Both the position numbers and the translations under genes were made by a program. A model generated the notes under the pieces. That model was not told the DNA's origin, made no database searches, and saw nothing but the letters and a program-made list of their open reading frames with translations. DNA of 36,869 bases, taken from a virus. The first letter of the stretch is position 1. Every line of letters starts with the position of its first letter. Positions 24,392-36,706 of the stretch are shown piece after piece. The stretch lies in IMG/VR virus record IMGVR_UViG_3300032245_000383, positions 1 through 36,869 of that record; one strand, written 5' to 3'.

Positions 24392-24402
24392 GGTTACCTC
24401 CA

Positions 24403-24414
24403 TCTAATATTAGA
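24403..24414. promoter_or_regulatory. Palindromic operator-like site 1 (exact)
   Basis: TCTAATATTAGA. On the minus strand its TAA is the stop of the 63-residue gene, and GGAGG for the winged-helix gene follows directly. It is the leftmost exact copy. Confidence 0.85.
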
Positions 24415-24601
24415 AGTTGAATTTCATTTGGGCATCGTTAGGGATAGGCTGTGGTGCCTTGCGCCCCAATAGATGTTCGAGTTCGTCAAGGTCGCGCAAG
24501 CGCATCTCGAGTCGCTCTGTTAACGCTTTGATAAGCGGGTCAGCGTAGTGTGCATCCGCAAAGCGGAGCAATTCGGAATCGGTTAAGTTGTCGTAGGTCA
24601 T
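24410..24601 (-). CDS. Unknown small protein, 63 aa
   Basis: Helical and acidic (SELLRFADAHYADPLIKALTE; EMRLRDLDELEHLLG) with a short tail ending FNF. Its stop codon TAA (24412-24410) lies inside the operator palindrome. It starts in an overlap with the upstream gene. No function recognised. Confidence 0.6.
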   Translation of the reverse strand: MTYDNLTDSELLRFADAHYADPLIKALTERLEMRLRDLDELEHLLGRKAPQPIPNDAQMKFNF

Positions 24602-24918
24602 GCTAGTTCAATAAAGTTGATGAGGGTATGGTTCTTGTCGGTATGGAACCAAAGGATGACCTCTGGCGGTGGGGTGATTGGCGTCTTGAGGCGGCCTGCA
24701 ACCCTCGCAACATCCACGATGCCCGTAAGCCATTCGGGTTGCGTAGAGACTGAACCATGTAGCGTGTTCTCTTTGCCGTCATGCCAGCATTTGAGTTTGA
24801 ACTCACCGCCGTGGGCTTCGTATCGAAATTCATATAGGTCATCGTTCATTCGGTCCTTGTAGTAAAAGTTGTCGATTTGCCGTATGGCGTCTGCTTTTTT
24901 AAATTCCTTATATGTCAC
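24598..24918 (-). CDS. Unknown protein, 106 aa
   Basis: A mixed alpha/beta protein with WHDGKENTLHGSV and a C-terminal beta-rich segment (EVILWFHTDKNHTLINFIE). It has no enzyme motif. It is coupled to the DUF3150-like gene by ATGA. Confidence 0.58.
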   Translation of the reverse strand: MTYKEFKKADAIRQIDNFYYKDRMNDDLYEFRYEAHGGEFKLKCWHDGKENTLHGSVSTQPEWLTGIVDVARVAGRLKTPITPPPEVILWFHTDKNHTLINFIELA

Positions 24919-25787
24919 TCAATCCCCCAGTCAAATGCAGATAGGATTTCATCTACCTTCTGCTTGGTTGTAATACGAGTACCGTCTTCCTCCCGAAGTT
25001 CTTTAGGAGTTACGCCAGATAATACTGACTCAAGCTGACGCGAAGCTTTCGTGAGCGCAGAATCTCCAGTCACATTCAGTTGGTCAAGCAACTCGCACAA
25101 TTCAAGCGCACCCGTCACCATCGTGTCGTGAAAGACTTTCTTCTTGCCGTCCTCAGTCACCACTAGGCGCTCACTCAGTCGCTTCAGGGCGTCATACAGT
25201 CGAGTCCAAGAGTCTTGGTTAGCGGCGGCAATCTGCTCTGTAATACGCTTCTCGTACTTGTCCACCAATTCCTGCTGAACCTCGTTCTCAATATCTAAAC
25301 GAAAGTCGCCCGATGTAGGCAGGGGCGTAAACGAAGTCTCCATGCGGAACTTCTTCTCGACTGCATCACGCAACGGGTACTCGTCACGCTCAAACAACGT
25401 ACCCAACTGGAACGCGGCGGCGGCAACCAACGTGTCGTACTTGTCCAAGAACGCACCCACCAGTCGGTCGAACTCAGCTTGGTATTTACCCATTGCTTTT
25501 TGGTAGTCGAGCAACGCCTTAGTGGGCAACAAGCGAGCGCCGTAGTCATTCCAAGGCAGGGTCAAGCGGTAATGCTCTGCCCTTGCTCGCGCTTGGAACT
25601 TAGTGATGGCATCCAACTCCACGCAGTCAGCGAACAGCGACTTGTACACCGATGCTGCCTTCTTAGAGTTAGCGCCCTTGGATAGCGTGACCTCAGCTTG
25701 CGTACGCTTGTCTTGCTTACGCCCTGAGTAGATTGAGATTTGTAAGTCAACGAGCATTGCGGCTCGTGCGATTCCTGCGACTTGCAT
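24915..25787 (-). CDS. DUF3150-like protein, 290 aa
   Basis: Residues 12-25 (LVDLQISIYSGRKQ) and the following helix, LPWNDYGARLLP near 90, and FDRLVGAFLDKYDTLV near 115 match my recollection of DUF3150. Phages often encode that family beside a CobS/MoxR-type ATPase and a VWA protein. Both partners are encoded 2-5 kb upstream in this operon, which supports the call. The remainder is long helices, probably coiled coil. It may be a structural or substrate-binding partner of the ATPase. ATG 25787; its stop overlaps the next gene. Family call from memory, so moderate confidence. Confidence 0.6.
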   Translation of the reverse strand: MQVAGIARAAMLVDLQISIYSGRKQDKRTQAEVTLSKGANSKKAASVYKSLFADCVELDAITKFQARARAEHYRLTLPWNDYGARLLPTKALLDYQKAMGKYQAEFDRLVGAFLDKYDTLVAAAAFQLGTLFERDEYPLRDAVEKKFRMETSFTPLPTSGDFRLDIENEVQQELVDKYEKRITEQIAAANQDSWTRLYDALKRLSERLVVTEDGKKKVFHDTMVTGALELCELLDQLNVTGDSALTKASRQLESVLSGVTPKELREEDGTRITTKQKVDEILSAFDWGIE

Positions 25788-25788
25788 A

Positions 25789-26049
25789 TTAGTCTTCCTT
25801 GTTCAGTTTGGTTACTAGCTTGGTTGATTCGTACTGTTCGTTCGTCATAACCTTGACCTCCAACGAATCGTTTATGTTGTACGGCTTGATGTGATGTATG
25901 TAGCTGTTGTTGTACCCGTGAGTACCTAAGTCTTTGCCAACGCTGTGGTCATACACCATTTCGCATCCCTCAAGGATGTGTGTCATAGCTTCGAGTTGTT
26001 CGGCGGTCATCACAAGTTTTGTGCCGCCAACGGTGAATGTAAATTTCAT
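25789..26049 (-). CDS. Unknown small protein, 86 aa
   Basis: ATG 26049 is fixed by AAGGAG eight bases upstream. The longer 157-residue reading would overlap the upstream gene. The start MKFTFTVGGTKLVMTAEQLE suggests a beta hairpin plus helix. HHIKPYNINDSLEVKVM lies in the middle. No motif of known function. Confidence 0.62.
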   Translation of the reverse strand: MKFTFTVGGTKLVMTAEQLEAMTHILEGCEMVYDHSVGKDLGTHGYNNSYIHHIKPYNINDSLEVKVMTNEQYESTKLVTKLNKED

Positions 26050-26050
26050 A

Positions 26051-26659
26051 TTAAGCTCCTTCATCAATCTCAATTTCAAACGAAATTTCATTGCACTCAC
26101 ATGACTCAAGAAACGATTCCACGCTCGTGATATGTTCGTAATCGGCTTCCAAATCCCTTGCCAACTTAGCGCAGGCATCGGAGCAGAATTCTTCAATGCA
26201 AGTTTCAAGACCCGCAAACGTGAGTTGTTCATTAAGTAGGTCCTCCCATGCGTAAGCGTCAAGGTATTTAAAGATACCTTCGGGCTCGGTGTTGTATAGA
26301 TGTTCGTTCAGGTTGAACGCATTGCCATAGCGCCCCGCCCTCACAGTCACATAGCTTCCGTCTTGCTTCACGGCAAGATAGAGTGCAGGGTACTTCTCAT
26401 CTAATATTAGATGCTGCATAAACTGCGCCACATCAACGTGTCCGTCAAACATGGCACTCGCAGGGTATGTATCGAACTGAATCTTCTCAACACGCACACC
26501 TGCCTCAGTCATATCGCACTTGAACGAGTCCTGAAGCCACTCCCACCAGTCGTCATGTACGGCGTACTCGCACCATGCGTAGTACTCTTTGTCGAAACGC
26601 TTGGGGTCAAGCACTTGCAATTCTTTCGCGGTTACTAATTTCAATACTCGCGTATTCAT
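26051..26659 (-). CDS. Conserved phage protein of unknown function, 202 aa
   Basis: FDKEYYAWCEYAVHDDWWEW followed by VRVEKIQFDTYPASAMFDG resembles a phage family with W-x3-Y-x3-DWW, then I-x-F-SGF-x-QGDGAxFxG. Here the QGDGA part is altered. The C-terminal half is acidic with four cysteines. Codons for H83 to D87 (HLILD) contain an exact TCTAATATTAGA (26400-26411). The function is unknown. An early host-interaction role is only a guess from position. Confidence 0.65.
   Translation of the reverse strand: MNTRVLKLVTAKELQVLDPKRFDKEYYAWCEYAVHDDWWEWLQDSFKCDMTEAGVRVEKIQFDTYPASAMFDGHVDVAQFMQHLILDEKYPALYLAVKQDGSYVTVRAGRYGNAFNLNEHLYNTEPEGIFKYLDAYAWEDLLNEQLTFAGLETCIEEFCSDACAKLARDLEADYEHITSVESFLESCECNEISFEIEIDEGA
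26400..26411. promoter_or_regulatory. Palindromic operator-like site 2 (exact, inside a gene)
   Basis: Extended form ATCTAATATTAGAT. Read as LILD in the 202-residue gene, about 250 bp from its start. Confidence 0.75.
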
Positions 26660-27051
26660 AGTGATACCTCAATGGTTGGTTTGATTCGCATTAACGGGTT
26701 CAATACGTTCTTTGATTTGTTGTAAGTAGTCTTACGTTGCTCATGGTCTTGTGGCACAACGGCAACTTCCCACGAGTAGTCAGCATCCAAGTCGCTTACT
26801 GCATTTAGTAGCTTGTTCAACGCTAAGTCGTCTTTGTGGTTTGCTTTGCCGTCACGCACCGCAATCTCAATTACAAACTCGTTGTCGTGGTAGACAACCT
26901 TGGTGTCTCTGCTCATTTTCAGAATCACATTCAGATCATCTACGCATAGTGTGTGCATCAGAACCTTGAGCATCTGATACTGTTCTTCCCTGTTCTTGGC
27001 AACATACACGCCGCGTCTAGGGTAGATAAGAATCTTCATGTCGCAGTACAT
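26656..27051 (-). CDS. Unknown phage protein, paralogue of next gene, 131 aa
   Basis: MKILIYPRRGVY near the N-terminus, Y-x2-LK-VLMHTL, then VIEIAVRDGKANHKDDLALN and LLNAVSDLDADYSWEVAVV. The neighbour at 27059 has CLIYP, a matching LMNTTF, VDFAIDDVKW, AAFMNLLNEVEDLGYEYEFIRV. The shared order indicates a tandem duplication. It may start at ATG 27051 (GAGG site) or at the internal Met 5. Function unknown. Confidence 0.62.
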   Translation of the reverse strand: MYCDMKILIYPRRGVYVAKNREEQYQMLKVLMHTLCVDDLNVILKMSRDTKVVYHDNEFVIEIAVRDGKANHKDDLALNKLLNAVSDLDADYSWEVAVVPQDHEQRKTTYNKSKNVLNPLMRIKPTIEVSL

Positions 27052-27058
27052 ACGCGCC

Positions 27059-27439
27059 TCACAGATTGCAGTTGATATGGGTTGATACGTTGAGATACCC
27101 GTTGTGGTTGTTGGTCTCTTTCATTTCAATGTCATTGTTATCCTCACCGACACGAATGAACTCGTACTCATACCCAAGGTCTTCGACCTCGTTAAGCAGA
27201 TTCATAAACGCCGCAACGTCAGGGTAAGACTCGTACCACTTCACATCGTCAATCGCAAAATCAACAACGTGATGGTCTTCGTCAAACGTCACGCAACCAT
27301 CCCAAAAACCAACAACTTCTTTGAACGTGGTGTTCATCAGCGTGACAAGCGTGTGATAGTTGTCAACGAGCGTTGGCTTGTCCCCCGTTGGTGTGTCCAT
27401 TGGGTAGATCAGGCATCTAATATTAGATCGGTATCCCAT
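27059..27439 (-). CDS. MGYRS-type unknown protein, 126 aa
   Basis: The N-terminus MGYRSNIRCLIYP resembles a group of small phage proteins starting MGYRS. The rest parallels the 131-residue neighbour (LMNTTFKEV; DFAIDDVKW; NLLNEVEDLGYEYE). Residues 5-8 (SNIR) are encoded exactly by the palindrome TCTAATATTAGA, 13 bases after the ATG, so the site overlaps the translation-initiation region. Confidence 0.62.
   Translation of the reverse strand: MGYRSNIRCLIYPMDTPTGDKPTLVDNYHTLVTLMNTTFKEVVGFWDGCVTFDEDHHVVDFAIDDVKWYESYPDVAAFMNLLNEVEDLGYEYEFIRVGEDNNDIEMKETNNHNGYLNVSTHINCNL
27416..27427. promoter_or_regulatory. Palindromic operator-like site 3 (exact, codons 5-8)
   Basis: TCTAATATTAGA read as SNIR at codons 5-8 of the 126-residue gene. 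The frame differs from the LILD sites. Confidence 0.78.
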
Positions 27440-27441
27440 GC

Positions 27442-27768
27442 TCAGTCCTCCTTGTCCATTAACACCAATACAACAGAGATAGCATCAATCAACGTATCGC
27501 CGTCACGCACGATGTACACGCATTGCTCGTTAATATCAGGCCCGTTAGGGTTGTACTTGTGTTTATGAAACGTGATGTACTGACCGTTCAAAGCATCGCG
27601 TACTGTGAATGTCTTTGATTGCATGTGGTCAGGCGATGAGTCGGCGCCAAGCGCAATACCCAATCGGTGTTTCTTGCGTTCCTCTATCTTGCCTTCCACC
27701 CAACGAGGGATGTACATAATCGCAAAACCTGCAACCACCCCTATGAGGGCGCTAACTACTGAATCCAT
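27442..27768 (-). CDS. Membrane-anchored unknown protein, 108 aa
   Basis: An N-terminal hydrophobic segment (VVSALIGVVAGFAIMYIP, residues 3-20) is followed by a basic stretch (KIEERKKHRLG) and a soluble beta-rich domain (YITFHKHKYN; QCVYIVRDGDTLIDAI). It is probably a single-span inner-membrane protein with its domain in the cytosol. It lies directly downstream of the metallopeptidase-VWA gene, so it could be a membrane docking partner, which is speculative. Confidence 0.6.
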   Translation of the reverse strand: MDSVVSALIGVVAGFAIMYIPRWVEGKIEERKKHRLGIALGADSSPDHMQSKTFTVRDALNGQYITFHKHKYNPNGPDINEQCVYIVRDGDTLIDAISVVLVLMDKED

Positions 27769-27771
27769 ATC

Positions 27772-28938
27772 TCAATCCTCCAAGTTAATAGTGATGCCGT
27801 ATGGCGCTTGCAAGTTAGAAGTCAATGCCCACATAGTCGGACAGTCAGCACGACCCCAATCACCTACATAGCCATCGCTGAACTGCACAATCGCTTGTGG
27901 TGTGATGCGCTTGTCACGCAGGTAGTCAAACAATACCGAGCCGTCAGTACCGCCACCGCCTCGGGGCTTCAAGTCTTGAACAGCGAACTGACCTTCCTCG
28001 AATGTTTGATGCCCTGCTACCTCGGTGTCCCAATAGATAACGTGTGTCTTGGCAGGTTTAACGTCTTCGATGATGGTGCGAATCTCAGACACGAAGCGTG
28101 TCATCTCGTCACCGCCAAAGCATGAGCCTGACGTATCGAAGCCAATCACTAACTCGTTCATCTTTGTGCCAAGCATGGTGGGCATATAAATGTCCTCTGC
28201 CAAGTACCTACGATTAGGTCTGCGCCATGATGACTCGTCACGCCCTGCACAAGTCTCTTGAATGAATTCACGCAACACCTTACGCCAGTCAACCTTGGGA
28301 GTAAGCAAGTCACCGAACACACCATCGGCACCACCTGCACCCTTACCTGCCAACTTCTTGCGGAGAATCTCGCCTTGACGAATCGCACGTTGAATCTCAT
28401 TGGCACGTTCAGCTTCTTGTTGTGGGTCGCCTGCGGCATTGCCCCACTCATGGTCATCTAAGCCACTCTCGTCTTGACCCTGACCCTTGCCGCCCTTCTC
28501 TTGCTCTTGCTTGAGGTCGTCGAAGATTTGCTTGACCGACCAACCGCGATACTTAGCTTCGGGCTTGATACCGACACTTGGCATCTTGATGAACCCCTCG
28601 CCTGAGTCCATGTCTTCGAGCGACAGATTGACGAAGTGGTCAGCCGCGATGTTGGACAGCATGGGGTCTTCCTCATGCAACGCTTGCCACACACTCATGT
28701 GGCGATACGCCTTGTGTACTGCCTCGTGCAATACAACGAAGCGCAACTCGGGGTCAGTTGATAAGAACTTCTCGACAAACTTCTCGTTGTACTTGACGTT
28801 CCATCCATCGGTAGCCGCAGTCGGCACCTCGTCAGTTACGGACACAGTACCGCAAGCAAGTACGCCTGAGAACGCACAGAACTTTTTGTGTTGCATGATA
28901 CTGATATGTGATTTCTTGATACGGTCAGACACATTCAT
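27772..28938 (-). CDS. DUF2201-like metallopeptidase/VWA protein, 388 aa
   Basis: Two domains. The N-terminal one has VLHEAVHKAYRH with HExxH at 71-75, then NIAADHFVN near 95, as in the DUF2201 putative metallopeptidase region. A Lys/Gln/Glu-rich linker follows. The C-terminal VWA-like domain has IGFDTSGSCFGG near 267-278 (the DxSGS metal-ion-dependent adhesion site), GGGGTDGS near 330 and QFSDGYVGDW near 350. VWA proteins of this type usually pair with MoxR ATPases, and one is encoded two kilobases upstream. An exact palindrome lies 14 bp before the ATG, just ahead of the AAGGAAATCAAA leader. Activity and substrate are unknown. Confidence 0.82.
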   Translation of the reverse strand: MNVSDRIKKSHISIMQHKKFCAFSGVLACGTVSVTDEVPTAATDGWNVKYNEKFVEKFLSTDPELRFVVLHEAVHKAYRHMSVWQALHEEDPMLSNIAADHFVNLSLEDMDSGEGFIKMPSVGIKPEAKYRGWSVKQIFDDLKQEQEKGGKGQGQDESGLDDHEWGNAAGDPQQEAERANEIQRAIRQGEILRKKLAGKGAGGADGVFGDLLTPKVDWRKVLREFIQETCAGRDESSWRRPNRRYLAEDIYMPTMLGTKMNELVIGFDTSGSCFGGDEMTRFVSEIRTIIEDVKPAKTHVIYWDTEVAGHQTFEEGQFAVQDLKPRGGGGTDGSVLFDYLRDKRITPQAIVQFSDGYVGDWGRADCPTMWALTSNLQAPYGITINLED

Positions 28939-28951
28939 TTTGATTTCCTTA

Positions 28952-28963
28952 TCTAATATTAGA
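28952..28963. promoter_or_regulatory. Palindromic operator-like site 4 (exact)
   Basis: ATCTAATATTAGAT lies in the 32-bp gap between the 187-residue gene and the metallopeptidase/VWA gene, directly 5' of the AAGGAAATC ribosome-binding site. Confidence 0.85.
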
Positions 28964-28970
28964 TGGTTGA

Positions 28971-29534
28971 TTAAAAGATTTCGAGTTTCATCGGGATAGG
29001 TGTGGGGTCATCCAACCTATCGGCTAACGCATTGAGCGCCGCTACATCTTCAGGCAGTCGCAGGGATAACAACTTGTTGTGTACGATCTCTCGTAACTCT
29101 TGGTTGTCGAGTCGCACATAGAACTGCATCATTTGCGGGGCGTAGTCGTTGAGTTTGCGTATCGTGCGCTTGTTCTCGACTATGTTGGTGTCGAGGCGTT
29201 TGATTGCCCAATGATTTGTAGACCCGTCAATCTTCATTTTCTCGAGCGCCGCGTCAGCTTCAAACCATTCATCGAACTGCGCTAAGTCCGCAGGTGATAG
29301 TCGTTGGCAACGAAACATAGAGTCCCACCCATTCAACACAGGCAAGTTCTTGTCACGCATAAGCTGACGCGCTAACTGCATTGACTTACTTGACCATCCA
29401 CCCTTCAGCTTGCCCTTGCGAAACATATCTTGCGCCATCTTCTTGATGCGTGGTGAGATTTGCGTTGGGTCGATGTGGGCTTGCACTACTACGCCCGAGA
29501 TTTTTAGTTGTCGTGCCGTGTCATAGATACTCAT
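28971..29534 (-). CDS. Unknown protein between the MoxR and VWA genes, 187 aa
   Basis: A helical, basic protein (IKKMAQDMFRKGKLKGGW; MQLARQLMRDKNL) with ENKRTIRKLNDYAPQMMQFY in the middle. No motif is recognised. Its place between the MoxR ATPase and VWA genes suggests it is part of that assembly. Start overlaps the upstream stop by ATGA, and TTAAGGAATC supplies a ribosome-binding site. Confidence 0.6.
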   Translation of the reverse strand: MSIYDTARQLKISGVVVQAHIDPTQISPRIKKMAQDMFRKGKLKGGWSSKSMQLARQLMRDKNLPVLNGWDSMFRCQRLSPADLAQFDEWFEADAALEKMKIDGSTNHWAIKRLDTNIVENKRTIRKLNDYAPQMMQFYVRLDNQELREIVHNKLLSLRLPEDVAALNALADRLDDPTPIPMKLEIF

Positions 29535-29716
29535 GTTGATTCCTTAACAAATTTTGCGTGTGCCGCAACTAAGTCGTTGCGTACTGATTCGTCTGTGATG
29601 ATTTTGTGAACGAAGAACTTAGCCATCTCCGCATCGTGGTTGTACTTGAACGCATAGGCGGTAGCCACCATGCCCCATGCAAACAAGATAACCTCTGTGA
29701 ATGTGAACTCAATCAT
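29531..29716 (-). CDS. Small membrane-associated protein, 61 aa
   Basis: An N-terminal hydrophobic stretch (FTEVILFAWGMVATAYAF, residues 6-23) and a soluble end (ITDESVRNDLVAAHAKF). Overlaps both neighbours by ATGA. Function unknown. Confidence 0.58.
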   Translation of the reverse strand: MIEFTFTEVILFAWGMVATAYAFKYNHDAEMAKFFVHKIITDESVRNDLVAAHAKFVKEST

Positions 29717-29883: not shown

Positions 29884-29893
29884 ATTGCCTCCA

Positions 29894-29905
29894 TCTAATA
29901 TTAGA
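29894..29905. promoter_or_regulatory. Palindromic operator-like site 5 (exact)
   Basis: TCTAATATTAGA. The TAA stop of the MoxR gene (29903-29901) is part of it, and GGAGG for the 56-residue gene follows. Confidence 0.85.
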
Positions 29906-30986
29906 AGTACTTGCCCAACTTGGCGGCGGATGCGGTGAACTTGCGGTTGCGACACGCCATGCCTACCTTGGATTTGTTGGATGCCAATGATGTGACAAAC
30001 AACGCGAACGCCTCGAATGAAGTCTCACCCATACGCTCGGCATACACCATGACTTCATCAATAGTCTCAGCGTCTACACGGCTTGCCAACATGAAAGCGA
30101 GAATGAACATTGCACCTACTGAGTCAGCCTTCGGCACCTTGGTCTTGTGTGGGTCTTTCACAATGGTCTCGAACAATGGCAACGAATCGGACAGATTAAC
30201 TAACGCCTCCATCTGACGGGCGGCGGCTTCGCCTACTGTGCCTGACAACGCAGGTAAGAACGCATTACCCAACACATCACGACTAGACACAAGGTTGGAT
30301 GCCTTGGCTAACGAACGAGGCGAACAGAACGTACGAGTGTTGCCTGTCAATGGGTTGAAGATGTAGGGATTCTTAGCCTTGGGGTCGAGGTCGGTGTAGC
30401 AATCGAACACTTCGGGTGTCTGCTTGGCGAACGCCATGATCTCAGGTGCTACGCTGTTGTCTGCCGCCCACTCTAGCCACTCGTCACACGTTGGGTTGTT
30501 GATGACTAACTCGGTCATGCGGTTGTAAGCATGGGCAGGGATGTTGTCGCCTACGCCGTCAGTATCTAGGTTGGTTGTTGCGAACACGATTGAACCAGTA
30601 GGCAACTCCACATCACCGAGGCGATGCTCAAGAATCACAGGCAACAACATATTGAGTACGGGGCGCGATGCTTTGCCTAGTTCGTCTAACATTAGAAGAA
30701 CAGGGCGTGTTTGGTTTTTGCCGATACCGAATCGTGCATTGGGTGCATAGTTTGTAACCATGCTCTCGCGGTCAATGACTGGCATACCCAAGTCACCGAG
30801 GTCGAGGTTAGCTACGTCAATGTAGCAAGGCAAGTAGTCAGGCAGTTCACGCTTGAGTGTTTTAAGAATGTCAGACTTGCCGACACCTGGCTGACCACGC
30901 ATGATGAACGTGTTAGATGACCCGCAGTTACGAACGAGAGTCGCGGCTTGCTTGAGGTTGATTTTGAGTGTGTTACGAACTTGCAT
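29901..30986 (-). CDS. MoxR-type AAA+ ATPase, 361 aa
   Basis: Walker A GQPGVGKSD at 31-39, Walker B VLLMLDE at 96-102, FATTNLD as sensor 1 near 143-149, and FCSPRSLAKA as the likely sensor 2 region near 230. The fold matches MoxR/CobS-like AAA+ ATPases, which act as remodelling chaperones together with VWA proteins. The VWA partner and a DUF3150-like protein are in the same operon. The leader TTAGGAAATCAAAATG is shared with the VWA gene, and a palindrome lies 37 bp before the ATG. The stop codon is inside another palindrome. The role in phage biology is unknown. Confidence 0.9.
   Translation of the reverse strand: MQVRNTLKINLKQAATLVRNCGSSNTFIMRGQPGVGKSDILKTLKRELPDYLPCYIDVANLDLGDLGMPVIDRESMVTNYAPNARFGIGKNQTRPVLLMLDELGKASRPVLNMLLPVILEHRLGDVELPTGSIVFATTNLDTDGVGDNIPAHAYNRMTELVINNPTCDEWLEWAADNSVAPEIMAFAKQTPEVFDCYTDLDPKAKNPYIFNPLTGNTRTFCSPRSLAKASNLVSSRDVLGNAFLPALSGTVGEAAARQMEALVNLSDSLPLFETIVKDPHKTKVPKADSVGAMFILAFMLASRVDAETIDEVMVYAERMGETSFEAFALFVTSLASNKSKVGMACRNRKFTASAAKLGKYF
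30685..30696. promoter_or_regulatory. Possible palindromic variant inside MoxR Walker B codons
   Basis: TCTAACATTAGA, one central change from consensus and identical to the copy beside P2. It overlaps codons for LMLD of Walker B, so coincidence is possible. Confidence 0.35.
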
Positions 30987-31034: not shown

Positions 31035-31043
31035 TGGCTTGGC

Positions 31044-31784
31044 TTACAGGTGGGTTACGTCTGTCTTTACTATTTCATAGCAGTCCTTTCTGAGTGTTTG
31101 CATTAGTGAATCCCACGCCTCATGCGGTTCGCGTTTAGCGTAGACATATTTGCTTTGGCTATAACTGTAATAACGAGTCCATGTGAACGCCGATACTACG
31201 CTCGGCCAATAGTTCGAGTGATGTTCAAACGTCACTACGTTGCTAAGTCGGTCGGGGCGATACCCTGCTTCTTCAGGTGTGCTTACTGCCCACAACAGAT
31301 TGAACGCATCCTTGAACCCACACGCCGCCATGTCTTCGCGTATTTTTTTGGATTCCTCACGATTCACACGCTTGCGCTCGAACGTGCGAAGCGGAGATGT
31401 GATAGTGCCATCGGCGCCCAACTCCATGCCGTCATAGTAGAGATAAGTCTTGCCACCGATGTATAGAGTGGGTTGCGACAGTCCGAATACTTTGCGTGAT
31501 GACAGGCGCATATAGAAATGGGGTATGAACCCGAACGCTTCATTCATGCGTAGCTTAGTTGTGGGGCGGTCATACCATCCGTGTGTGTCGAGCACCACAC
31601 GCCCATCGGGGTACGCAGTCAACAAGTCTGTGCCATACATACGCACACGCATAGAGTCATCGTTGCCCTTGACTACGCGCACATAGGTACGCCAACGCTT
31701 ACCCGCAGGTGCATCGCCCTTGTATTGCCCACGCTTGAATACGTGGCGCTCGAGATGTAATTTAAGTTTCATGTAAGTGTTCAT
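31044..31784 (-). CDS. Conserved phage protein of unknown function, 246 aa
   Basis: The segment VRMYGTDLLTAYPDGRVVLD, then GWYDRPTTKLRMNEAFGF, matches a module I recall from many phage proteins (TDxxxxxxDGxxxLxxxGWxxxTTxxRxN) whose role is not known. A Tyr/Trp-rich C-terminus (WTRYYSYSQSKYVYAK) follows. It is soluble. ATG is in an ATGA overlap with the upstream gene. Its stop lies 9 bp before a palindrome. Confidence 0.65.
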   Translation of the reverse strand: MNTYMKLKLHLERHVFKRGQYKGDAPAGKRWRTYVRVVKGNDDSMRVRMYGTDLLTAYPDGRVVLDTHGWYDRPTTKLRMNEAFGFIPHFYMRLSSRKVFGLSQPTLYIGGKTYLYYDGMELGADGTITSPLRTFERKRVNREESKKIREDMAACGFKDAFNLLWAVSTPEEAGYRPDRLSNVVTFEHHSNYWPSVVSAFTWTRYYSYSQSKYVYAKREPHEAWDSLMQTLRKDCYEIVKTDVTHL

Positions 31785-32026
31785 TTGTTTCTCCGATATC
31801 CATAAAGTTTTAAAAGCATGGGTGCTGCCGAATCGGCTTCGTCAAACGTCTTAAACGATGCGATGTAGTTGCCATTGATAGACAAGTCCCATTCTTTGGT
31901 GCGACTGTTTATCTCAAGCCATAGGTAGTCGGGGTAAGCTAGGTCGGGGTAGCCTATCTGCATATCCCACACCCGTTGGTTTACCTTGTGCCACTTACCT
32001 CTGTGTGTTGGCCCGAAGTTAATCAT
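31781..32026 (-). CDS. Unknown small protein, 81 aa
   Basis: Begins MINFGPTHRGKWHKVNQRVW. LWLEINSRTKEWDLSING and FKTFDEADSAAPML suggest a small beta sheet plus helix resembling the neighbours at 32384-33527. Its ATG overlaps the end of the palindrome (TTAGATG), and no separate ribosome-binding site is visible, so the palindrome may lie directly in the initiation region. Confidence 0.6.
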   Translation of the reverse strand: MINFGPTHRGKWHKVNQRVWDMQIGYPDLAYPDYLWLEINSRTKEWDLSINGNYIASFKTFDEADSAAPMLLKLYGYRRNK

Positions 32027-32037
32027 CTAATATTAGA
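32026..32037. promoter_or_regulatory. Palindromic operator-like site 7 (exact, stop and start embedded)
   Basis: On the minus strand the palindrome supplies TAA ending the 41-residue gene, and its final base is the A of the next ATG. Confidence 0.85.
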
Positions 32038-32158
32038 CGTTGCGCCATCCTGTCACTAACCTTGCAATCAACTGGTCGAACCCGATTCGTTTCAGGTTGC
32101 CGAACCCATCGTCTACCCATAGAGCGTTTACCTCGCCCCGTGTTGTGTGTTTAGTCAT
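32033..32158 (-). CDS. Short gene, 41 aa
   Basis: ATG at 32158 overlaps the upstream stop by 8 bp. TAA at 32033-32035 lies in the palindrome. The peptide MTKHTTRGEVNALWVDDGFG continues to GWRNV. It fills an otherwise empty 120-bp interval. No family recognised. Confidence 0.55.
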   Translation of the reverse strand: MTKHTTRGEVNALWVDDGFGNLKRIGFDQLIARLVTGWRNV

Positions 32159-32387
32159 CTACTTTCTCCATCGTGTTGCACAATAGCCATAGCAAGTCTC
32201 GTGCTTCTTGCTCTGTTGGTACGCTTGTCTTGAAGCCCGTATAAAACAACTCGACAATCCAATACGTACCTTTCTTTGCAGGGTAGTACTGCCCTGCGTA
32301 CATCCATGTGTGGTGTCCTGCATTACCGAACGCTACTAGCCTCTCGACATGGTTCGGGCGGAATCCATCGCTCCATCGGATGTTCAT
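32151..32387 (-). CDS. Unknown small protein, 78 aa
   Basis: ATG 32387 (MNIRWSDGFRPNHVERLVAF) is chosen because GGAGG precedes it and ATGA overlaps the upstream stop. The frame could extend five residues. YWIVELFYTGFKTSVPTEQEARDLLWLL resembles the strand-helix pattern of the next genes (shown by positions 43-70). Function unknown. Confidence 0.6.
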   Translation of the reverse strand: MNIRWSDGFRPNHVERLVAFGNAGHHTWMYAGQYYPAKKGTYWIVELFYTGFKTSVPTEQEARDLLWLLCNTMEKVDD

Positions 32388-32683
32388 GCTGACTCCCTCC
32401 ATTGCCTGAGTTCATCGGCGTTCATGCGGTTGGCTACGCCTGTTATCCACCACACCTTTGCGTAGTCCGTCACATCATTCTTGGCATCACACAACAGTTT
32501 GTATGGCTTCTCAACGTGAACATGGTCTTCGCATACAAAGCCTGATACGAAGACTTCCCATTCCTCGATGTGCTCATACCAAGTGACGACGGCAAACAGA
32601 TACTTGTGTCCATCTAATATTAGATACAGTTTCCATGTATCGTCATCCCATGAGTCAGTTGATTTCTTCCATCGGTATTTCAT
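32384..32683 (-). CDS. Unknown small protein of a tandem family, 99 aa
   Basis: WKLYLILDGHKYLFAVV, a Trp/Phe-rich centre and the C-terminal DVTDYAKVWWITGV. The C-terminal (Y)A-x-(V/L)W-x-I-x-G pattern is repeated in the genes at 32680 and 33240, so these may be tandem paralogues. Codons 21-24 (LILD) carry an exact palindrome. Confidence 0.6.
   Translation of the reverse strand: MKYRWKKSTDSWDDDTWKLYLILDGHKYLFAVVTWYEHIEEWEVFVSGFVCEDHVHVEKPYKLLCDAKNDVTDYAKVWWITGVANRMNADELRQWRESA
32613..32624. promoter_or_regulatory. Palindromic operator-like site 8 (exact, inside a gene)
   Basis: ATCTAATATTAGAT read as LILD at codons 21-24 of the 99-residue gene. Confidence 0.75.
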
Positions 32684-32904
32684 AGGTCATCTCCGTCTGG
32701 TCTACCTGCAACAATCCACACACGGGCGTATCGCGCTACTCTGCGCTTGATTCCTGCCTCTGTCTTGCATGGCGTGTAGTTTGGTTTGAGGTGTCTATGC
32801 ACCCATGAGTGATGCACACAGCACCACCCCTTGTCTGTGTTGTATACGGATGCAATACATCGCCCATCTAAGAACAACAAAGTTCCGTGCCACTCGATGC
32901 TCAT
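32680..32904 (-). CDS. Unknown small protein of a tandem family, 74 aa
   Basis: ATG 32904 follows AGGA and overlaps the upstream stop as ATGA. A longer reading needs a TTG start. MSIEWHGTLLFLDGRCIASV is followed by GWCCVHHSW and RRVARYARVWIVAGRP. The ending matches KYIELWAIAGYP of the 33240 gene. Cys/His content could allow metal binding. Confidence 0.6.
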   Translation of the reverse strand: MSIEWHGTLLFLDGRCIASVYNTDKGWCCVHHSWVHRHLKPNYTPCKTEAGIKRRVARYARVWIVAGRPDGDDL

Positions 32905-33029
32905 GGTGTCCTGCCTTGTTCTTTCAGGATACGCACCCAATCAACACGCGTCATAAACCAACGAAACAATGCGGTACAACAATCCTGACAAAGCAAGTCA
33001 TGGTTGTCGCCTAGTTTTTTCTCAGTCAT
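32901..33029 (-). CDS. Short cysteine-containing gene, 42 aa
   Basis: ATG 33029 and TGA 32901 both sit in ATGA overlaps. The peptide contains LLCQDCCTALFRWF, with a C-x2-CC group that may bind metal, and ends KEQGRTP. It lies beside a four-cysteine zinc-ribbon gene. No family recognised. Confidence 0.58.
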   Translation of the reverse strand: MTEKKLGDNHDLLCQDCCTALFRWFMTRVDWVRILKEQGRTP

Positions 33030-33238
33030 GCCACACCTCCCTTGTGTGATGTGTTAAGCCCTCGCAGTAACGAGTGGTCGGTTATCAGGATGTAGTTGCT
33101 CTTGGGCATGGGTGCTACTGTGTGCTTGACTTGTCGTGCCTGCACCTCGCCGCACTTGAGGCAGGTGTGATACCCCAAGCGCCAACGCAGTACGGGTACG
33201 TACTCGTCACATTCAATGCAATGATTTCTCTTGCTCAT
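33026..33238 (-). CDS. Small zinc-ribbon phage protein, 70 aa
   Basis: HCIECDEYVPVLRWRLGY then TCLKCGE gives two C-x2-C knuckles, a zinc ribbon. The tail (ARQVKHTVAPMPKSNYILIT, then LLRGLN) matches small phage zinc-ribbon proteins I have met with the same KHTxxPxxKSNYxL sequence. The function is unknown, probably nucleic-acid binding. GGAG lies upstream, within the end of the gene before it in plus coordinates. Confidence 0.7.
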   Translation of the reverse strand: MSKRNHCIECDEYVPVLRWRLGYHTCLKCGEVQARQVKHTVAPMPKSNYILITDHSLLRGLNTSHKGGVA

Positions 33239-33239
33239 A

Positions 33240-33527
33240 TCAACTCCTTGTCGGATAACCTGCTATTGCCCACAACTCGATGTACTTGCGTACCCTGCGC
33301 GTTGCACCTTTCCTAGTGTTTAGGCGTGTGACTGGTGGGCTGAAATACGTTCTGATTGATGGCAGAAACCCCACGCTGTACTTGCCGTCTGCCAACACGA
33401 CTGCCGCCGCTGTTACCCAGTAGCGGTCTGTCTGCCGTCTAAGATTAGATGGCGGTTCAATCTTTGCGAGCCATGTCACAGTACCTTCGCCGTTGTAGTT
33501 CTCGCGGGTTTCCCATACGATGTTCAT
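33240..33527 (-). CDS. Unknown protein of a tandem family, 95 aa
   Basis: ATG 33527 with GGAG nine bases upstream is chosen over a 116-residue reading. MNIVWETRENYNGEGTVTWL, then DRYWVTAAAVVLADGKYSVG and RVRKYIELWAIAGYP. The C-terminus matches that of the 32680 gene. Codons 27-30 (SNLR) overlap a one-mismatch palindrome. Confidence 0.6.
   Translation of the reverse strand: MNIVWETRENYNGEGTVTWLAKIEPPSNLRRQTDRYWVTAAAVVLADGKYSVGFLPSIRTYFSPPVTRLNTRKGATRRVRKYIELWAIAGYPTRS
33438..33449. promoter_or_regulatory. Palindromic operator-like variant (one central mismatch)
   Basis: TCTAAGATTAGA, the same variant as in promoter P3 on the other strand. Read as SNLR at codons 27-30. Confidence 0.55.
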
Positions 33528-33528
33528 T

Positions 33529-33879
33529 TCAGTTCTCCAGTTGCCAGTCTTTACAGTTGCAGAATTCCTCGTTGCCCGTTTTAGTTGCATCGCAACTTGT
33601 CATGTGTGTACTCAGCGGCTTAGGCTTCGTGCCGTGGTACAGATAGGCGTCAATGGCATTTGCCGTATCGTTAAGCCTTTGCGTCACATTTGAGTACGCC
33701 TTTGCCACCAACGCCATTTGCTCAGGCGTTGTCTGCGGGTTGCTCATTAGCTTGAGCATCACTTCCTCCATGTGCGCCACGTTCTCACGGATGCCGTTCC
33801 ACTTACGCATCAGGATGCTTACCTTTGGGTTGTTCATGCCGAACGCCCACGATGTTGGTTGCATATCGCTTGTCTTCAT
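33529..33879 (-). CDS. Unknown protein, first gene after the P1 leader, 116 aa
   Basis: A helical protein (IRENVAHMEEVMLKLM; EQMALVAKAYSNVTQRLNDT) with a Cys-containing end (SCDATKTGNEEFCNCKDW), C-x-C perhaps metal binding. AGGAG lies 7 bp before the ATG. As the first gene of the P1 transcript it should be an early product. No family recognised. Confidence 0.65.
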   Translation of the reverse strand: MKTSDMQPTSWAFGMNNPKVSILMRKWNGIRENVAHMEEVMLKLMSNPQTTPEQMALVAKAYSNVTQRLNDTANAIDAYLYHGTKPKPLSTHMTSCDATKTGNEEFCNCKDWQLEN

Positions 33880-34000
33880 AGTTTTCTCCTGTTAAAACTC
33901 AAGTCATAGCCCACTACTACATGGGCTACAAGCTGAACTTGTCAGCCACGGGCGTCTCCCGTGTCGGTACGATAGGGTTTGTCGGTGTGATTTACTGGCG

Positions 34001-34012
34001 TCTAATATTAGA
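34001..34012. promoter_or_regulatory. Palindromic operator-like site 9 (exact)
   Basis: TCTAATATTAGA in the P1 leader, about 120 bp before the first gene. Confidence 0.82.
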
Positions 34013-34324
34013 TAGCCATCCCACATCCCAAGGGTTGTTGTCGGTTAGGACAGAGCAACCCAACCCATTTAGGTACATTGCGTTTGCATTGCATCCAGCC
34101 TATACAGGCAGCTATCCCGTTCGGTGTCATGGTGAGCGTCAGCCCCCATATACATACACACTACTAGGTACACCACTTGATGCTCCGACTGACTACGGAA
34201 CGCCTATTCACTCAGGGAGGTTGCACACATCAGTTCGGGGAGTCTTAGTGCCTCTTGTTTTACTGCTTGTCGTCACCTGTGTAGCTTCTGGTATTTACCA
34301 GCGGCGGTTTGGTTTGGTGTTGTA

Positions 34325-34336
34325 TCTAATATTAGA
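34325..34336. promoter_or_regulatory. Palindromic operator-like site 10 (exact)
   Basis: ATCTAATATTAGAT in the P1 leader, right after the boxA-associated hairpin in the direction of transcription. Confidence 0.85.
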
Positions 34337-34340
34337 TGGC

Positions 34341-34358
34341 TTGGTTAGATGTAACCAA
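34341..34358 (-). promoter_or_regulatory. Hairpin, boxB-like position
   Basis: In the P1 RNA, UUGGUUA and UAACCAA pair around a CAUC loop. The hairpin starts about 20 bases after boxA, as boxB does in lambdoid nut sites, though the loop differs from a lambda boxB loop. Confidence 0.45.
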
Positions 34359-34377
34359 CAACACAATGTCTGATAGG

Positions 34378-34390
34378 TTTTTAAAGAGCA
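34378..34390 (-). promoter_or_regulatory. boxA-like antitermination element
   Basis: Minus-strand TGCTCTTTAAAAA lies about 55 bases after the P1 start. TGCTCTTTAA is identical to the core of the bacterial rRNA boxA, which NusB and S10 recognise. Position and sequence suggest factor-dependent antitermination of the long transcript. Confidence 0.55.
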
Positions 34391-34451
34391 ATGAAGGCGC
34401 CGATGTGTAATGCTACCTACCTTTCGGAACGATTTCCTACTCGATGGCTCT

Positions 34452-34480
34452 ATTGTAACATCTAATGGAGAGTTTGTCAA
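34452..34480 (-). promoter_or_regulatory. Promoter P1, strong sigma70 type
   Basis: Leftward TTGACA (34475-34480), 17-bp spacer, TACAAT (34452-34457). The spacer contains ATTAGAT, a palindrome half-site. An exact palindrome lies 35 bp upstream of the -35 box. The sequence is nearly the same as P2 (shared CACTTGACA and TACAATAGAG), so the two arose by duplication. It is the most likely start of the long leftward operon. Confidence 0.85.
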
Positions 34481-34515
34481 GTGTTTTGGGAGCCGTTTCC
34501 AGCCCCCACTAAGCG

Positions 34516-34527
34516 TCTAATATTAGA
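34516..34527. promoter_or_regulatory. Palindromic operator-like site 11 (exact, 18-bp symmetry)
   Basis: Symmetry extends to GCGTCTAATATTAGACGC, the longest copy. It lies between the twin-HTH gene stop and the P1 -35 box. Confidence 0.88.
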
Positions 34528-34548
34528 CGCGGTGATAGTCCCTAGCCC

Positions 34549-35205
34549 TTACTTATCCCATCCCCCCGTGATTGGGTTGTACATCACATCGGCAATGGCG
34601 ATGTAGTGTCCGCCTCGCCATGCAATATCTCCGCCTGTCATGTCGGGTGGGTACTTGGCTTCGAGTTGTGCTTGTCCCATACCATCGAGTCGGTCTGCCA
34701 CGATCTTTCTTGCAATGGGTTCGTACTTGGACACCAAGATGTTGCACTCGTCACCAAACGTCAGGTCGTCAAACGCATGGTATTTCTTGTTGGATATGGC
34801 AAAGCGTTCTTCTTGCGTTAGCTTCTTCGCCTTGGGCGCGGCTCCGACAATTTGATTGACCCTGATAACGCTGAGTCCATGTTGTCTTGCAATCTCGGCA
34901 CGAGGCACTTTGTTCCGCGCCGCATCTAATATTAGACGATTGCGCTCGGCATTTGGGTTGCGCTTTTCGGGGTTTGGGTTTGGTCGTGTGGACATGATCT
35001 GCGTGATGCGGTTCACAGATAGTCCGTATTCAACTGCGACTTCGGATTGCTTTGCACCTGCCCATACTTTGTGGGCAATCTCGGCATCTCTGTCGGCGTT
35101 CTTTGCCTTGGTGTATAGCGAAGCGATAGCAGCTCTTGCTGCGGGGTCATTACGCAGGGCTTCGAGCAGTTCGACTGTGGTGAGTTGGGCGGCGGTGTTG
35201 GTCAT
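34549..35205 (-). CDS. Twin helix-turn-helix DNA-binding protein, 218 aa
   Basis: Two HTH units in tandem. The first spans about 45-71 (AKQSEVAVEYGLSVNRITQI) and the second about 91-120 (PRAEIARQHGLSVIRVNQI), joined by a Pro/Asn-rich linker. The unrelated C-terminal domain (WRGGHYIAIADVMYNPITGG) may bind a partner. The HTH repeat resembles sigma region 4 or Mor-like folds. Palindromes surround the gene: upstream at 35270, inside codons 91-94 (LILD), and downstream at 34516 beside P1. That makes it the best candidate for the palindrome-binding regulator, probably autoregulatory. ATG 35205 has no clear ribosome-binding site. Confidence 0.78.
   Translation of the reverse strand: MTNTAAQLTTVELLEALRNDPAARAAIASLYTKAKNADRDAEIAHKVWAGAKQSEVAVEYGLSVNRITQIMSTRPNPNPEKRNPNAERNRLILDAARNKVPRAEIARQHGLSVIRVNQIVGAAPKAKKLTQEERFAISNKKYHAFDDLTFGDECNILVSKYEPIARKIVADRLDGMGQAQLEAKYPPDMTGGDIAWRGGHYIAIADVMYNPITGGWDK
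34925..34936. promoter_or_regulatory. Palindromic operator-like site 12 (exact, inside the twin-HTH gene)
   Basis: TCTAATATTAGA read as LILD (codons 91-94) in helix 1 of the second HTH. Confidence 0.75.
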
Positions 35206-35269
35206 ATATGCGTGTGATAGTTGAGTTGAGTGAAGGTTATATGATACACGAAAATGTATAGGGAGTTCA

Positions 35270-35281
35270 TCTAATATTAGA
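35270..35281. promoter_or_regulatory. Palindromic operator-like site 13 (exact)
   Basis: ATCTAATATTAGAT, 65 bp before the ATG of the twin-HTH gene. An ATACA/TGTAT inverted repeat lies between them. No clear -35/-10 pair was seen here. Confidence 0.85.
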
Positions 35282-35659
35282 TGCGATGTATGTTGAAACA
35301 GAGGGGGTTTGTTGCGTGTGGCGGGGATGCAACGGGGGGTATGTTATGTCAGAACCCGCATAGATACGTTGAGCACTTGCCGATGCAACAAAGTAACGCT
35401 GTTTTGGCGTATATTTGCCCATGGGGGGTAGTTGTCGTACGCCAACATATACATGAGGGTGCTGAGTTATATGTATATGCGAAATTCCAAGGCTACATAT
35501 TCTCGTTTGTGTGTGTTACTTTATATTATTTTATAGAATAGTAGTAGAGAGAGAGAGAAAAACCCCTGCAACAGACAGAAAGTGAAACCATTAGTAGTCG
35601 TTACAAATGTCACACCCTGCCTGTTGCACCCTGTTGCAAGTGTTGCATCTAATATTAGA
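35282..35659. other. AT-rich intergenic region with iteron-like repeats, possible origin
   Basis: No convincing gene. It holds TGTTGCA three times in direct order (35622, 35632, 35641; 10 and 9 bp apart) and twice inverted (35384-35390, 35567-35573). There is an 8-bp inverted repeat TTGGCGTA/TACGCCAA (35404-35411, 35438-35445), a strongly AT-rich stretch (about 35466-35545), and a GA tract (35545-35560). Iterons beside an AT-rich segment resemble a replication origin or a protein-loading site. A plus-strand frame (35281-35541) lacks support. Confidence 0.4.
35648..35659. promoter_or_regulatory. Palindromic operator-like site 14 (exact)
   Basis: Directly follows the TGA of the 63-residue gene in the direction of transcription and adjoins the iteron-like repeats. 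Confidence 0.82.
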
Positions 35660-35851
35660 TCATTCGAGTCGCCATATCTTGATACTGCGGTCGGGCTGTT
35701 GCTGTGTGGTGAACTTCTTGCCTGATGCTCGTGCGTATGTGTGGCATTGCACTTGTGCTTTAGGCCCTATGTCTGCGGGGAATGTGTGGCAGTCTCCGAT
35801 CTGCATATCCTTGAATGGCCACGCTCTGCGCTTTGGGATTGTGTTGTCCAT
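35660..35851 (-). CDS. Small protein of the GD...GxKF...IWR type, 63 aa
   Basis: From ATG 35851 (TTGGAG upstream): MDNTIPKRRAWPFKDMQIGD, then ARASGKKF and IKIWRL. The layout matches the gene at 9001-9255. A basic N-terminus fits nucleic-acid contact. It is directly under promoter P3 and next to the possible origin. A four-residue-longer start at 35863 would include the ribosome-binding site and is less likely. Confidence 0.65.
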   Translation of the reverse strand: MDNTIPKRRAWPFKDMQIGDCHTFPADIGPKAQVQCHTYARASGKKFTTQQQPDRSIKIWRLE

Positions 35852-35878
35852 GTCTGACTCCAAGTAGTTAAAGATACA

Positions 35879-35907
35879 ATTATATATCTAATCTTAGACG
35901 CCGTCAA
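35879..35907 (-). promoter_or_regulatory. Promoter P3 with palindrome variant in the spacer
   Basis: Leftward TTGACG (35902-35907), 17-bp spacer, TATAAT (35879-35884). The spacer contains the 12-bp palindrome variant, so a bound protein would block RNA polymerase directly. Just after the -10 box the RNA reads CUUUAAC, weakly like boxA. Confidence 0.8.
35887..35898. promoter_or_regulatory. Palindromic operator-like variant inside P3
   Basis: TCTAATCTTAGA on the plus strand, one central mismatch, placed between -35 and -10 of P3. Confidence 0.75.
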
Positions 35908-35913
35908 CACGCT

Positions 35914-35943
35914 CACTCTCGCGCCTTTGCCCACTCTCGCGCC
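35914..35943. repeat. Direct repeat of CACTCTCGCGCC upstream of P3
   Basis: Two identical 12-bp copies at 35914-35925 and 35932-35943, 18 bp apart, directly upstream of the P3 -35 box. This is a possible activator or repressor site. Confidence 0.7.
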
Positions 35944-35972
35944 CGCACTCCCCCTCGGTCAGGCTACTATCA

Positions 35973-35992
35973 CGCATGGCGCAAGCCATGCG
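35973..35992. other. Perfect hairpin with four-base loop
   Basis: CGCATGGC and GCCATGCG pair (8 bp) around GCAA on the plus strand. No U-run follows on either strand, so it is not a standard terminator. Role unknown. Confidence 0.5.
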
Positions 35993-36013
35993 CAGGGTAC
36001 AAAAGTACAGGCG

Positions 36014-36038
36014 AAAAAAAGCCGCCCCGAAGGGCGGC
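36014..36038 (-). terminator. Strong rho-independent terminator, UUCG loop
   Basis: Minus-strand stem of 7 GC-rich pairs (36021-36027 with 36032-36038) around UUCG, followed by seven U (36014-36020). It lies just after the 178-residue gene, ending the P2 transcript. Confidence 0.9.
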
Positions 36039-36049
36039 GGTTGGGTTGA

Positions 36050-36061
36050 TCTAATATTAGA
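36050..36061. promoter_or_regulatory. Palindromic operator-like site 15 (exact)
   Basis: Adjoins the TAA of the 178-residue gene and precedes the terminator by 12 bp. Confidence 0.82.
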
Positions 36062-36598
36062 TTAGTTCAAGACTGTCTCTTTAAAACCTTCAAGACGTTC
36101 AAGTGCGAGATCTAAAACGTCAGCCGCGAATTCAGTCAGCCCCAAGACGCGGGCTTGTGCCAGTGCTTTGCTTAGGGTTTTGTCCAATTCGTCACGGGTT
36201 GTGCTTGTGACTTTGCCAGTCTTGGGGGTTGCACTTGACGCGCCCTTTTTTGACCAAGGCAATTTTTTGGTGTCGTCATTCTTAAGTGCGGCCGCGAATG
36301 GTACATTGTAATGAAGGGCGCGTGCGGCCGATTGTGCATATTCCGTGAATGTCTTTTTCTCCATGATACCGGCCGCGACTGTATCAATGACAACTTGAGA
36401 ATCAGCGATAGCCTTTTGCAAGGCCTTGCACGCTTTTTCATCGCGCCCCATTGTGACGCTTACATGATCAACAAAGCGTTGCATTGTCGATTCAACTGTT
36501 GTGCTGAGTTTACCTTGTGCTTTGTCGAAGGCCTTGTAACCCTTGACGATATCGCGTGCGAAGTTGTCGAAGCTGAGTGTTGTGTTTTGAACTGACAT
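36062..36598 (-). CDS. Unknown protein in an isolated strong transcription unit, 178 aa
   Basis: A helical protein with no recognised domain. It contains DNFARDIVKGYKAFDKAQGK, FTEYAQSAARALHYNVPFAAAL (about residues 84-105, perhaps HTH-like), a Lys/Ser/Thr-rich linker and a C-terminal leucine-rich helix (FAADVLDLALERLEGF). It has its own strong promoter P2, the AAGGAAATCAAA leader, a palindrome beyond its stop and a strong terminator, so it is a single-gene unit. That suggests an abundant early protein. Host takeover factor or the palindrome repressor are both possible. Confidence 0.7.
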   Translation of the reverse strand: MSVQNTTLSFDNFARDIVKGYKAFDKAQGKLSTTVESTMQRFVDHVSVTMGRDEKACKALQKAIADSQVVIDTVAAGIMEKKTFTEYAQSAARALHYNVPFAAALKNDDTKKLPWSKKGASSATPKTGKVTSTTRDELDKTLSKALAQARVLGLTEFAADVLDLALERLEGFKETVLN

Positions 36599-36659
36599 TT
36601 TGATTTCCTTAAATAGAAGTTGATTTGAATCTCTGACTCATTACTGAACCAGAGCCTCT

Positions 36660-36688
36660 ATTGTATTAGATCTAATGGAGTCTGTCAA
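36660..36688 (-). promoter_or_regulatory. Promoter P2, strong sigma70 type
   Basis: Leftward TTGACA (36683-36688), 17-bp spacer, TACAAT (36660-36665). The spacer contains ATTAGATCTAAT, the palindrome half-sites in inverted order (36665-36676). A TCTAACATTAGA variant lies 6 bp upstream of the -35 box. Near duplicate of P1. Confidence 0.87.
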
Positions 36689-36694
36689 GTGTTA

Positions 36695-36706
36695 TCTAAC
36701 ATTAGA
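36695..36706. promoter_or_regulatory. Palindromic operator-like variant upstream of P2
   Basis: TCTAACATTAGA, one central mismatch, just upstream of the P2 -35 box. Confidence 0.7.

Follow-up and report, generated by a model that had tools for sequence, protein, structure and literature searches.

A stoperator-like network of palindromic sites in the early arm of a phage, and a candidate regulator whose predicted recognition helix varies with their spelling

The stretch of phage DNA described here, referred to as the window, is the whole 36,869-bp IMG/VR virus record IMGVR_UViG_3300032245_000383, which lacks end repeats and is therefore probably a fragment; nearly complete relatives are 62-68 kb in size, two of them with 127-bp direct terminal repeats. 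Its structural genes (46-9007) run rightward, while the early/replication arm, which occupies about 9000 to 36598, is read leftward. The early arm carries an iterated palindrome, TCTAATATTAGA, and opens with the gene for a protein termed F1, which is proposed as the regulator acting on it. The genes and promoters relevant to these sites are as follows.

36062..36598, minus strand: F1, 178 aa, first early gene and proposed regulator, with a class-specific signal at residues 82-89 (KTFTEYAQ)
36660..36688, minus strand: F1 promoter, TTGACA-17-TACAAT
35879..35907, minus strand: promoter TTGACG-17-TATAAT, with a site within its spacer
34549..35205, minus strand: helix-turn-helix (HTH) protein, 218 aa, two HTH segments, rival candidate for the regulator
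24915-25787, 27772-28938 and 29901-30986, minus strand: conserved gene set of DUF3150, VWA/DUF2201 metallopeptidase-like and MoxR-like ATPase genes

The palindrome TCTAATATTAGA is present in 15 exact copies spanning 24403-36061, with none expected, none found in 100 dinucleotide shuffles and none in the first 24.4 kb, in agreement with the count in an earlier reading made from the sequence alone. That sequence-only reading had also given at least three copies with a central mismatch in the same interval; there are in fact four, plus one outside it at 15446. These five (15446, 30685, 33438, 35887, 36695) are changed solely at the two central bases, which brings the total to 20 sites, 19 of them in the early arm at 24403-36706. 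The arms (TCTAA-NN-TTAGA) are perfect in all 20, the early arm of the window has no variants with one arm mismatch, and the site consensus widens to 16 bp, CATCTAATATTAGATG. The sites are listed below.

15446..15457, minus strand: centre variant within an HNH-type gene, reading TCTAATCTTAGA on the early-transcribed strand
24403..24414, no strand: exact, overlapping the start codon of gene 23900-24403
26400..26411, no strand: exact, within gene 26051-26659
27416..27427, no strand: exact, within gene 27059-27439, 12 bp past the gene start
28952..28963, no strand: exact, VWA/DUF2201 gene 14 bp downstream
29894..29905, no strand: exact, across the MoxR-like gene's stop codon and ahead of the probable start of the gene that follows
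30685..30696, minus strand: centre variant TCTAATGTTAGA, encoding the residues LLMLD within the MoxR-like ATPase's Walker B segment
31023..31034, no strand: exact, in the gap upstream of the MoxR-like gene
32026..32037, no strand: exact, overlapping the start codon of gene 31781-32026
32613..32624, no strand: exact, within gene 32384-32683
33438..33449, minus strand: centre variant TCTAATCTTAGA, within gene 33240-33590
34001..34012, no strand: exact, intergenic
34325..34336, no strand: exact, intergenic
34516..34527, no strand: exact, intergenic, part of the 18-bp palindrome GCGTCTAATATTAGACGC
34925..34936, no strand: exact, within the HTH gene
35270..35281, no strand: exact, HTH gene about 65 bp downstream
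35648..35659, no strand: exact, at the end of gene 35660-35863
35887..35898, minus strand: centre variant TCTAAGATTAGA, in a sigma70-type promoter, whose spacer it fills
36050..36061, no strand: exact, immediately downstream of F1
36695..36706, minus strand: centre variant TCTAATGTTAGA, lying just ahead of the F1 promoter's -35 box

The copies become denser toward the right, as had been noted, with the spacing falling from 1-2 kb to 0.2-0.4 kb, and their settings are those described from the sequence: upstream of a promoter (36695), in a promoter spacer (35887), between genes and within genes. Within the early interval 12 of the 19 sites are intergenic against 2.9 expected (p <= 5e-5), and few window sites lie near sigma70-like promoters. 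The motif is absent from the structural arm as well as from the shuffles, so that it is not equally dense in sequence of the same composition. The 12-mer was also not found described in the open-access literature searched, which agrees with the statement that no description of it was known. The Walker B codons that carry the site at 30685-30696 bear a site in the relatives L001 and L022 as well.

Relatives were collected from IMG/VR by searches with the MoxR-like gene (29901-30986), which gave 34 loci, and with the F1 gene (36062-36598), which gave 60 loci, the contigs being partly shared between the two sets. Their palindromes were identified by an unbiased half-site palindrome search, the classes being defined by script, in some loci from short fragments. 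Most relatives with enough sequence have a single dominant iterated palindrome, the spelling of which differs from that of the window, namely TTTTAANNTTAAAA, TCTTAANNTTAAGA, TTATAANNTTATAA, AACTAATATTAGTT, TTCTAACGTTAGAA or the odd-spacer form CATCTAA-NNN-TTAGATG. The half-sites are CATCTAA (spacer 2 or 3), cAACTAA, gTCTTAA, GTTATAA, cTTCTAA (spacer 2 or 3), CTTTTAA (spacer 2) and gTTTTAA (spacer 4). Nearly complete relatives have 11-17 sites each, concentrated in the early arm, and in L028, L029 and L031 the network is not clear. There is also a second iterated palindrome, GTTACNNNGTAAC or near to it, at about 3-4 copies per contig in L103-L107, L110, L115, L126 and L014, mostly in the TTATAA/TTCTAA group. 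The MoxR-like gene has distant relatives in 374 phage records, many of them 70-75 kb in size.

Relative to conserved genes, sites from every class lie at the same junctions (one arm mismatch being allowed and the density expectation being 0.02-0.17 per locus). A site just upstream of MoxR (31023 in the window) is found in 32 of 33 loci against 0.07 expected per locus, and one 5-60 bp after the gene preceding MoxR in 29 of 33. For F1, 34/37 loci have a site 70-140 bp upstream of the gene (36695 in the window) and 30/38 have one 150-260 bp past it; for the VWA gene, 25/31 have one at 10-35 bp upstream (28952 in the window). Three mid-gene control windows had sites in 0/33, 0/31 and 0/28 loci. 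Many sites are situated 20-45 bp upstream of start codons, and no promoter element was found at a fixed offset from most sites. Loss of the motif without pattern in relatives that keep the genes, which would have spoken against a network, is thus not what is seen; the sites are kept at orthologous junctions and their spelling has changed as a set. The combination of conserved positions and changed words is a concerted rewriting of a putative operator set. Kept positions with a word rewritten genome-wide are what operators show once their binding protein has changed specificity, and the palindromes are very probably operators for a phage-encoded protein. The earlier proposal of a palindromic operator network resembling the stoperators of phage L5 fits everything tested.

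Three other functions for the sites can be weighed against the same observations. The palindromes could act in the transcript as small hairpins, for processing, translation control or protein binding, given that the 16-bp form allows a 6-bp stem, that sites often lie just upstream of ribosome-binding sites and that the odd-spacer classes have strand-biased centres. However, the conserved site upstream of the -35 box is outside the transcript of that promoter, another site fills a promoter spacer, and the arms show no drift of a G-U kind, which makes this highly unlikely. Iterated palindromes are typical of parS, and the polar centres of some classes recall ter, yet a role in partition, packaging or replication (parS-like, Tus/ter-like or origin-like) is extremely improbable: a ParA family match was obtained in none of 10 records while control genomes were positive, the sites are restricted to the early arm, with none elsewhere in the 62-68 kb genomes, and they follow individual gene starts. 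Host regulators, too, can have palindromic sites, but binding by a host-encoded protein is hardly to be expected where the spelling changes class by class with the helix of a phage protein while positions stay, and no F1 homolog was found among the bacterial genome contigs scanned.

The phage protein in question is F1. Every motif-bearing locus that extends over the F1 region has the gene, also where the HTH gene is lacking; the remaining loci end short of it. In the examined loci it is preceded by a strong sigma70-type promoter, in most cases with TTGACA and a 17-bp spacer, and upstream of the -35 box there is a class-specific, often imperfect palindrome. Column-level covariation with motif class is highest for the F1 N-domain (mean z 2.6) and the HTH protein (2.2), compared to 0.3-0.6 for the terminase subunits TerS and TerL and for MoxR. 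When identity within a class is corrected for identity elsewhere in the protein, F1 alone has a strong localised peak, at residues 82-89, with an excess of 0.32, which is reached in 0/200 label permutations (p<0.005; null mean maximum 0.08). The localised class signal of TerS, MoxR, DUF2201 and DUF3150 is not significant, and the terminase large subunit control (7 rows) has a high but not significant value. Among the control genes, that at 31044 has a small but significant signal (0.13) and that at 24598 a value of 0.15 (p=0.025).

Examples illustrate the link between this segment of F1 and the spelling of the sites. The helix T[FVMI][TVI]EYA[QN] goes with ATCTAA or GTCTAA sites, ISKS[ST][GA]ASYQ[ST]AF with TTTTAA, NTARQYAQCF with TTATAA, ISKSSGVSYACAF with TCTTAA and NT[IV][ST]SYSGG with AACTAA sites. 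F1 itself is an orphan helical protein, with no relatives found in 50,697 phage records. AlphaFold2 on the alignment of its N-domain returned a model with very high local confidence (predicted local distance difference test 95) and a high predicted template modelling score (0.80), in which a long helix (11-50) is followed by helices 54-65 and 68-75, a turn and helix 81-97. In the model, helices 68-75 and 81-97 have the layout of an HTH and, because of this layout and the covariation, 81-97 is put forward as the recognition helix. Together these features make F1 the likely operator-binding protein.

The HTH protein encoded at 34549-35205 is the main competitor, in which case the operators would be real, their specificity would reside in an HTH or ribbon-helix-helix-HTH protein, and F1 would be hitchhiking. 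It possesses recognisable HTH motifs, with weak matches to Sigma70_r4, HTH_23 and KORA, and its gene stands in the operon with a site upstream. Apart from the column-level covariation given above, the residue preceding QI in its helix sorts by class (G, H, N, or V/T/A). In L118, moreover, an L080-like HTH protein and sites are kept while F1 is different. Against this, the HTH gene is absent from the clear networks of L033, L091, L094, L112, L025, L026 and L030, the helix SEIRVHQI is shared by the TCTTAA and TTATAA classes, and two HTH subfamilies are spread over the CTTAA, TATAA and TCTAA classes, whereas F1 types are confined to single motif classes. After correction the HTH protein has no localised signal (0.09, p=0.35). 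Although its helix sorts with class, it was set aside as the specificity factor, an unlikely one on this showing, and the evidence points to F1 rather than to the HTH gene as the putative regulator.

Many homologs of the HTH protein have a ribbon-helix-helix-like N-terminus plus one or two HTH segments; this N-terminal part is missing in the types of the window, L001 and L022, and subfamilies differ between close phages. There is also a small domain (WPFKDMQIGD..AQ..HTYARASGKKF) which stands alone in the window gene 35660-35863 (minus strand) and which in L024, L025, L026, L028, L029, L030, L031 and L094, where the HTH gene is absent, is mostly part of a larger protein. One further DNA-binding candidate is encoded in the window:

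12120..12386, minus strand: Cro/C1-type HTH protein

This protein was ruled out as the specificity factor, as its recognition helix is nearly invariant in CATCTAA and CTTTTAA phages.

Several points weigh against F1 as the reader of these sites. It matches no known DNA-binding family or fold. Its profile gave no sequence match to solved repressors, and fold searches with the whole protein and with the N-domain gave no PDB match of note and one uncharacterised viral model (E 0.02); the best second-look rows, of Z 4-5 (ribosomal-subunit chains, a chorismate mutase), have little meaning for a helical bundle. L118 has an ATCTAA-like site with a very different F1 helix. Independent class switches are few, about 5-9, and the terminase-subunit tree accounts for the classes about as well as the F1 tree, so that part of the covariation is shared ancestry. 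Parsimony changes on common sets are similar (F1 5, HTH 6-7, terminase subunit 4-5), and trees alone therefore cannot identify the regulator, while whole-protein distance correlations (Mantel tests) were weak and uninformative. In the odd-spacer classes nearly all asymmetric centres are oriented along transcription (L033 11:0, L018 6:0, L094 11:1, L112 6:1), but most even-spaced classes have a symmetric or mildly biased centre and this polarity is not general. Lastly, between the site at the F1 promoter and the -35 box downstream of it there are 8-28 bp, depending on the relative, an arrangement that would also suit an activator or an insulator.

That F1 or another phage protein acts at the sites as an activator or antiterminator draws further on the nearness of this site to activator-like positions and on the need of the phage for some factor in the switch to the structural arm. 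The same variation in distance to the -35 box speaks against it, however, as does the lack of sites in the structural arm, and it is considered improbable. Most sites have no fixed-offset promoter and lie at 20-45 bp from a start codon, which leaves too little room for activating a promoter downstream of them. This favours F1 as a block rather than an activator; repression or roadblock is its probable mode of action, if held with slightly less confidence than its binding to the sites.

Under the proposal that F1 reads the sites, it would be produced first, from the strong host sigma70-type promoter, and the start of its predicted recognition helix (KTFTEYAQ in the window) would read the half-site. 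As the sites are dyad-symmetric, a dimer or two F1 subunits may be bound at each. Accumulating F1 would occupy the operator next to the F1 promoter and about 19 others at early gene junctions, where it would repress initiation and block elongation by host RNA polymerase. The outcome would be silencing of the early arm once it has served or silencing of an incoming phage of the same specificity, and a shut-off of the early arm or a same-specificity exclusion system seems the best reading. Taken whole, F1-read operators that silence the early arm are the best explanation, with a probability only a little above even.

Upstream of the F1 promoter there is a strongly conserved non-coding block, CTCAGCGTAAGCG..GGAGTCCCA..GGGGTGCGGTGGGGTC (about 36740-36822 in the window, minus strand), found at the same place in 22 relatives, in which it sits between the F1 promoter and divergent terminase genes. 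It could be a packaging site or a terminator. Rfam gave nothing convincing for it, and a match to ryfA RNA was weak, far below the gathering score, and was disregarded. With regard to lifestyle, no lysogeny gene was found, the families covered being integrase (PF00589), resolvase (PF00239) and ParA (PF13614), and no prophage, F1 being in none of the bacterial genome contigs scanned; integration by a route of another kind could still occur. With N4-type hairpin promoters in mind, a phage-encoded T7-like or virion RNA polymerase was looked for by way of the family PF00940, which gave no match, the control set being likewise unresponsive.

A small HTH repressor, KorA/TrfB of IncP plasmids, serves several palindromic operators, which are promoter-bound. 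Besides this use of several palindromic sites, the likeness to it consists in a weak KORA profile match, below the family cut-off, of the HTH protein and not of F1. A closer parallel is provided by the stoperators of L5 and other cluster A phages, which are temperate and have 20-30 repressor sites per genome, mostly away from promoters in short intergenic spaces with one near the early promoter, the spelling varying between related phages together with the repressor (PMC6550527, PMC9283540). Like these, the window has 20 sites for one candidate protein, most of them in short intergenic regions and few at promoters. The L5 sites are asymmetric, 13-14 bp long and bound by a monomer with two DNA-binding domains (PMC6550527, PMC9283540), and repression is lost when they are reversed (PMC9283540). 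The centres of the odd-spacer classes are likewise oriented, strongly so, while in even-spacer classes orientation is weak or not definable. In contrast to L5, the sites described here are confined to the early arm, and in the window their arms are perfectly dyad-symmetric. Lysogeny genes were not found, and the profile of F1 has no sequence match to a solved repressor, though F1 and the cluster A repressor could be distantly related in fold.

The T1-like phages TLS and Stevie have intergenic repeats of 21-22 bp which were likened to stoperators by their authors; these phages have no RNA polymerase gene, and the repeats are asymmetric and of no known function or binding protein (PMC11447400, PMC4319613), their function being named an open question in the TLS paper (PMC11447400). 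The present phages belong to a different family and have palindromic sites, which are restricted to the early arm and for which there is a candidate protein. Nostoc phages A-1 and N-1 have 21-43 motifs per genome, typically between genes and proposed as promoters or stoperators, which are asymmetric and of inconsistent orientation and for which the text consulted names no covarying regulator (PMC4916379). In these respects they differ from the window sites, which are palindromes with F1 as a covarying candidate.

It may be, with about an even chance, that F1 represents a new family of phage DNA-binding regulators, without recognised relatives, and that phages showing no sign of lysogeny use it to operate a stoperator-like network built of symmetric sites. 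The helix and about 10-20 sites would then have switched together, over at least six spellings and three spacer lengths, in the manner of the immunity groups of temperate phages. Stoperators are known from the temperate cluster A phages, and the repeats of the virulent T1-like phages are without a binding protein or known function. Here a candidate protein, a likely reading helix and natural matched variants of protein and site are available, so that short duplexes and reporters would serve to test both function and specificity. The concerted change of many sites at fixed junctions is a rare natural experiment, in which the recognition word changes and the regulon is kept, and it raises the question of why a phage without apparent lysogeny would rewrite its operators.

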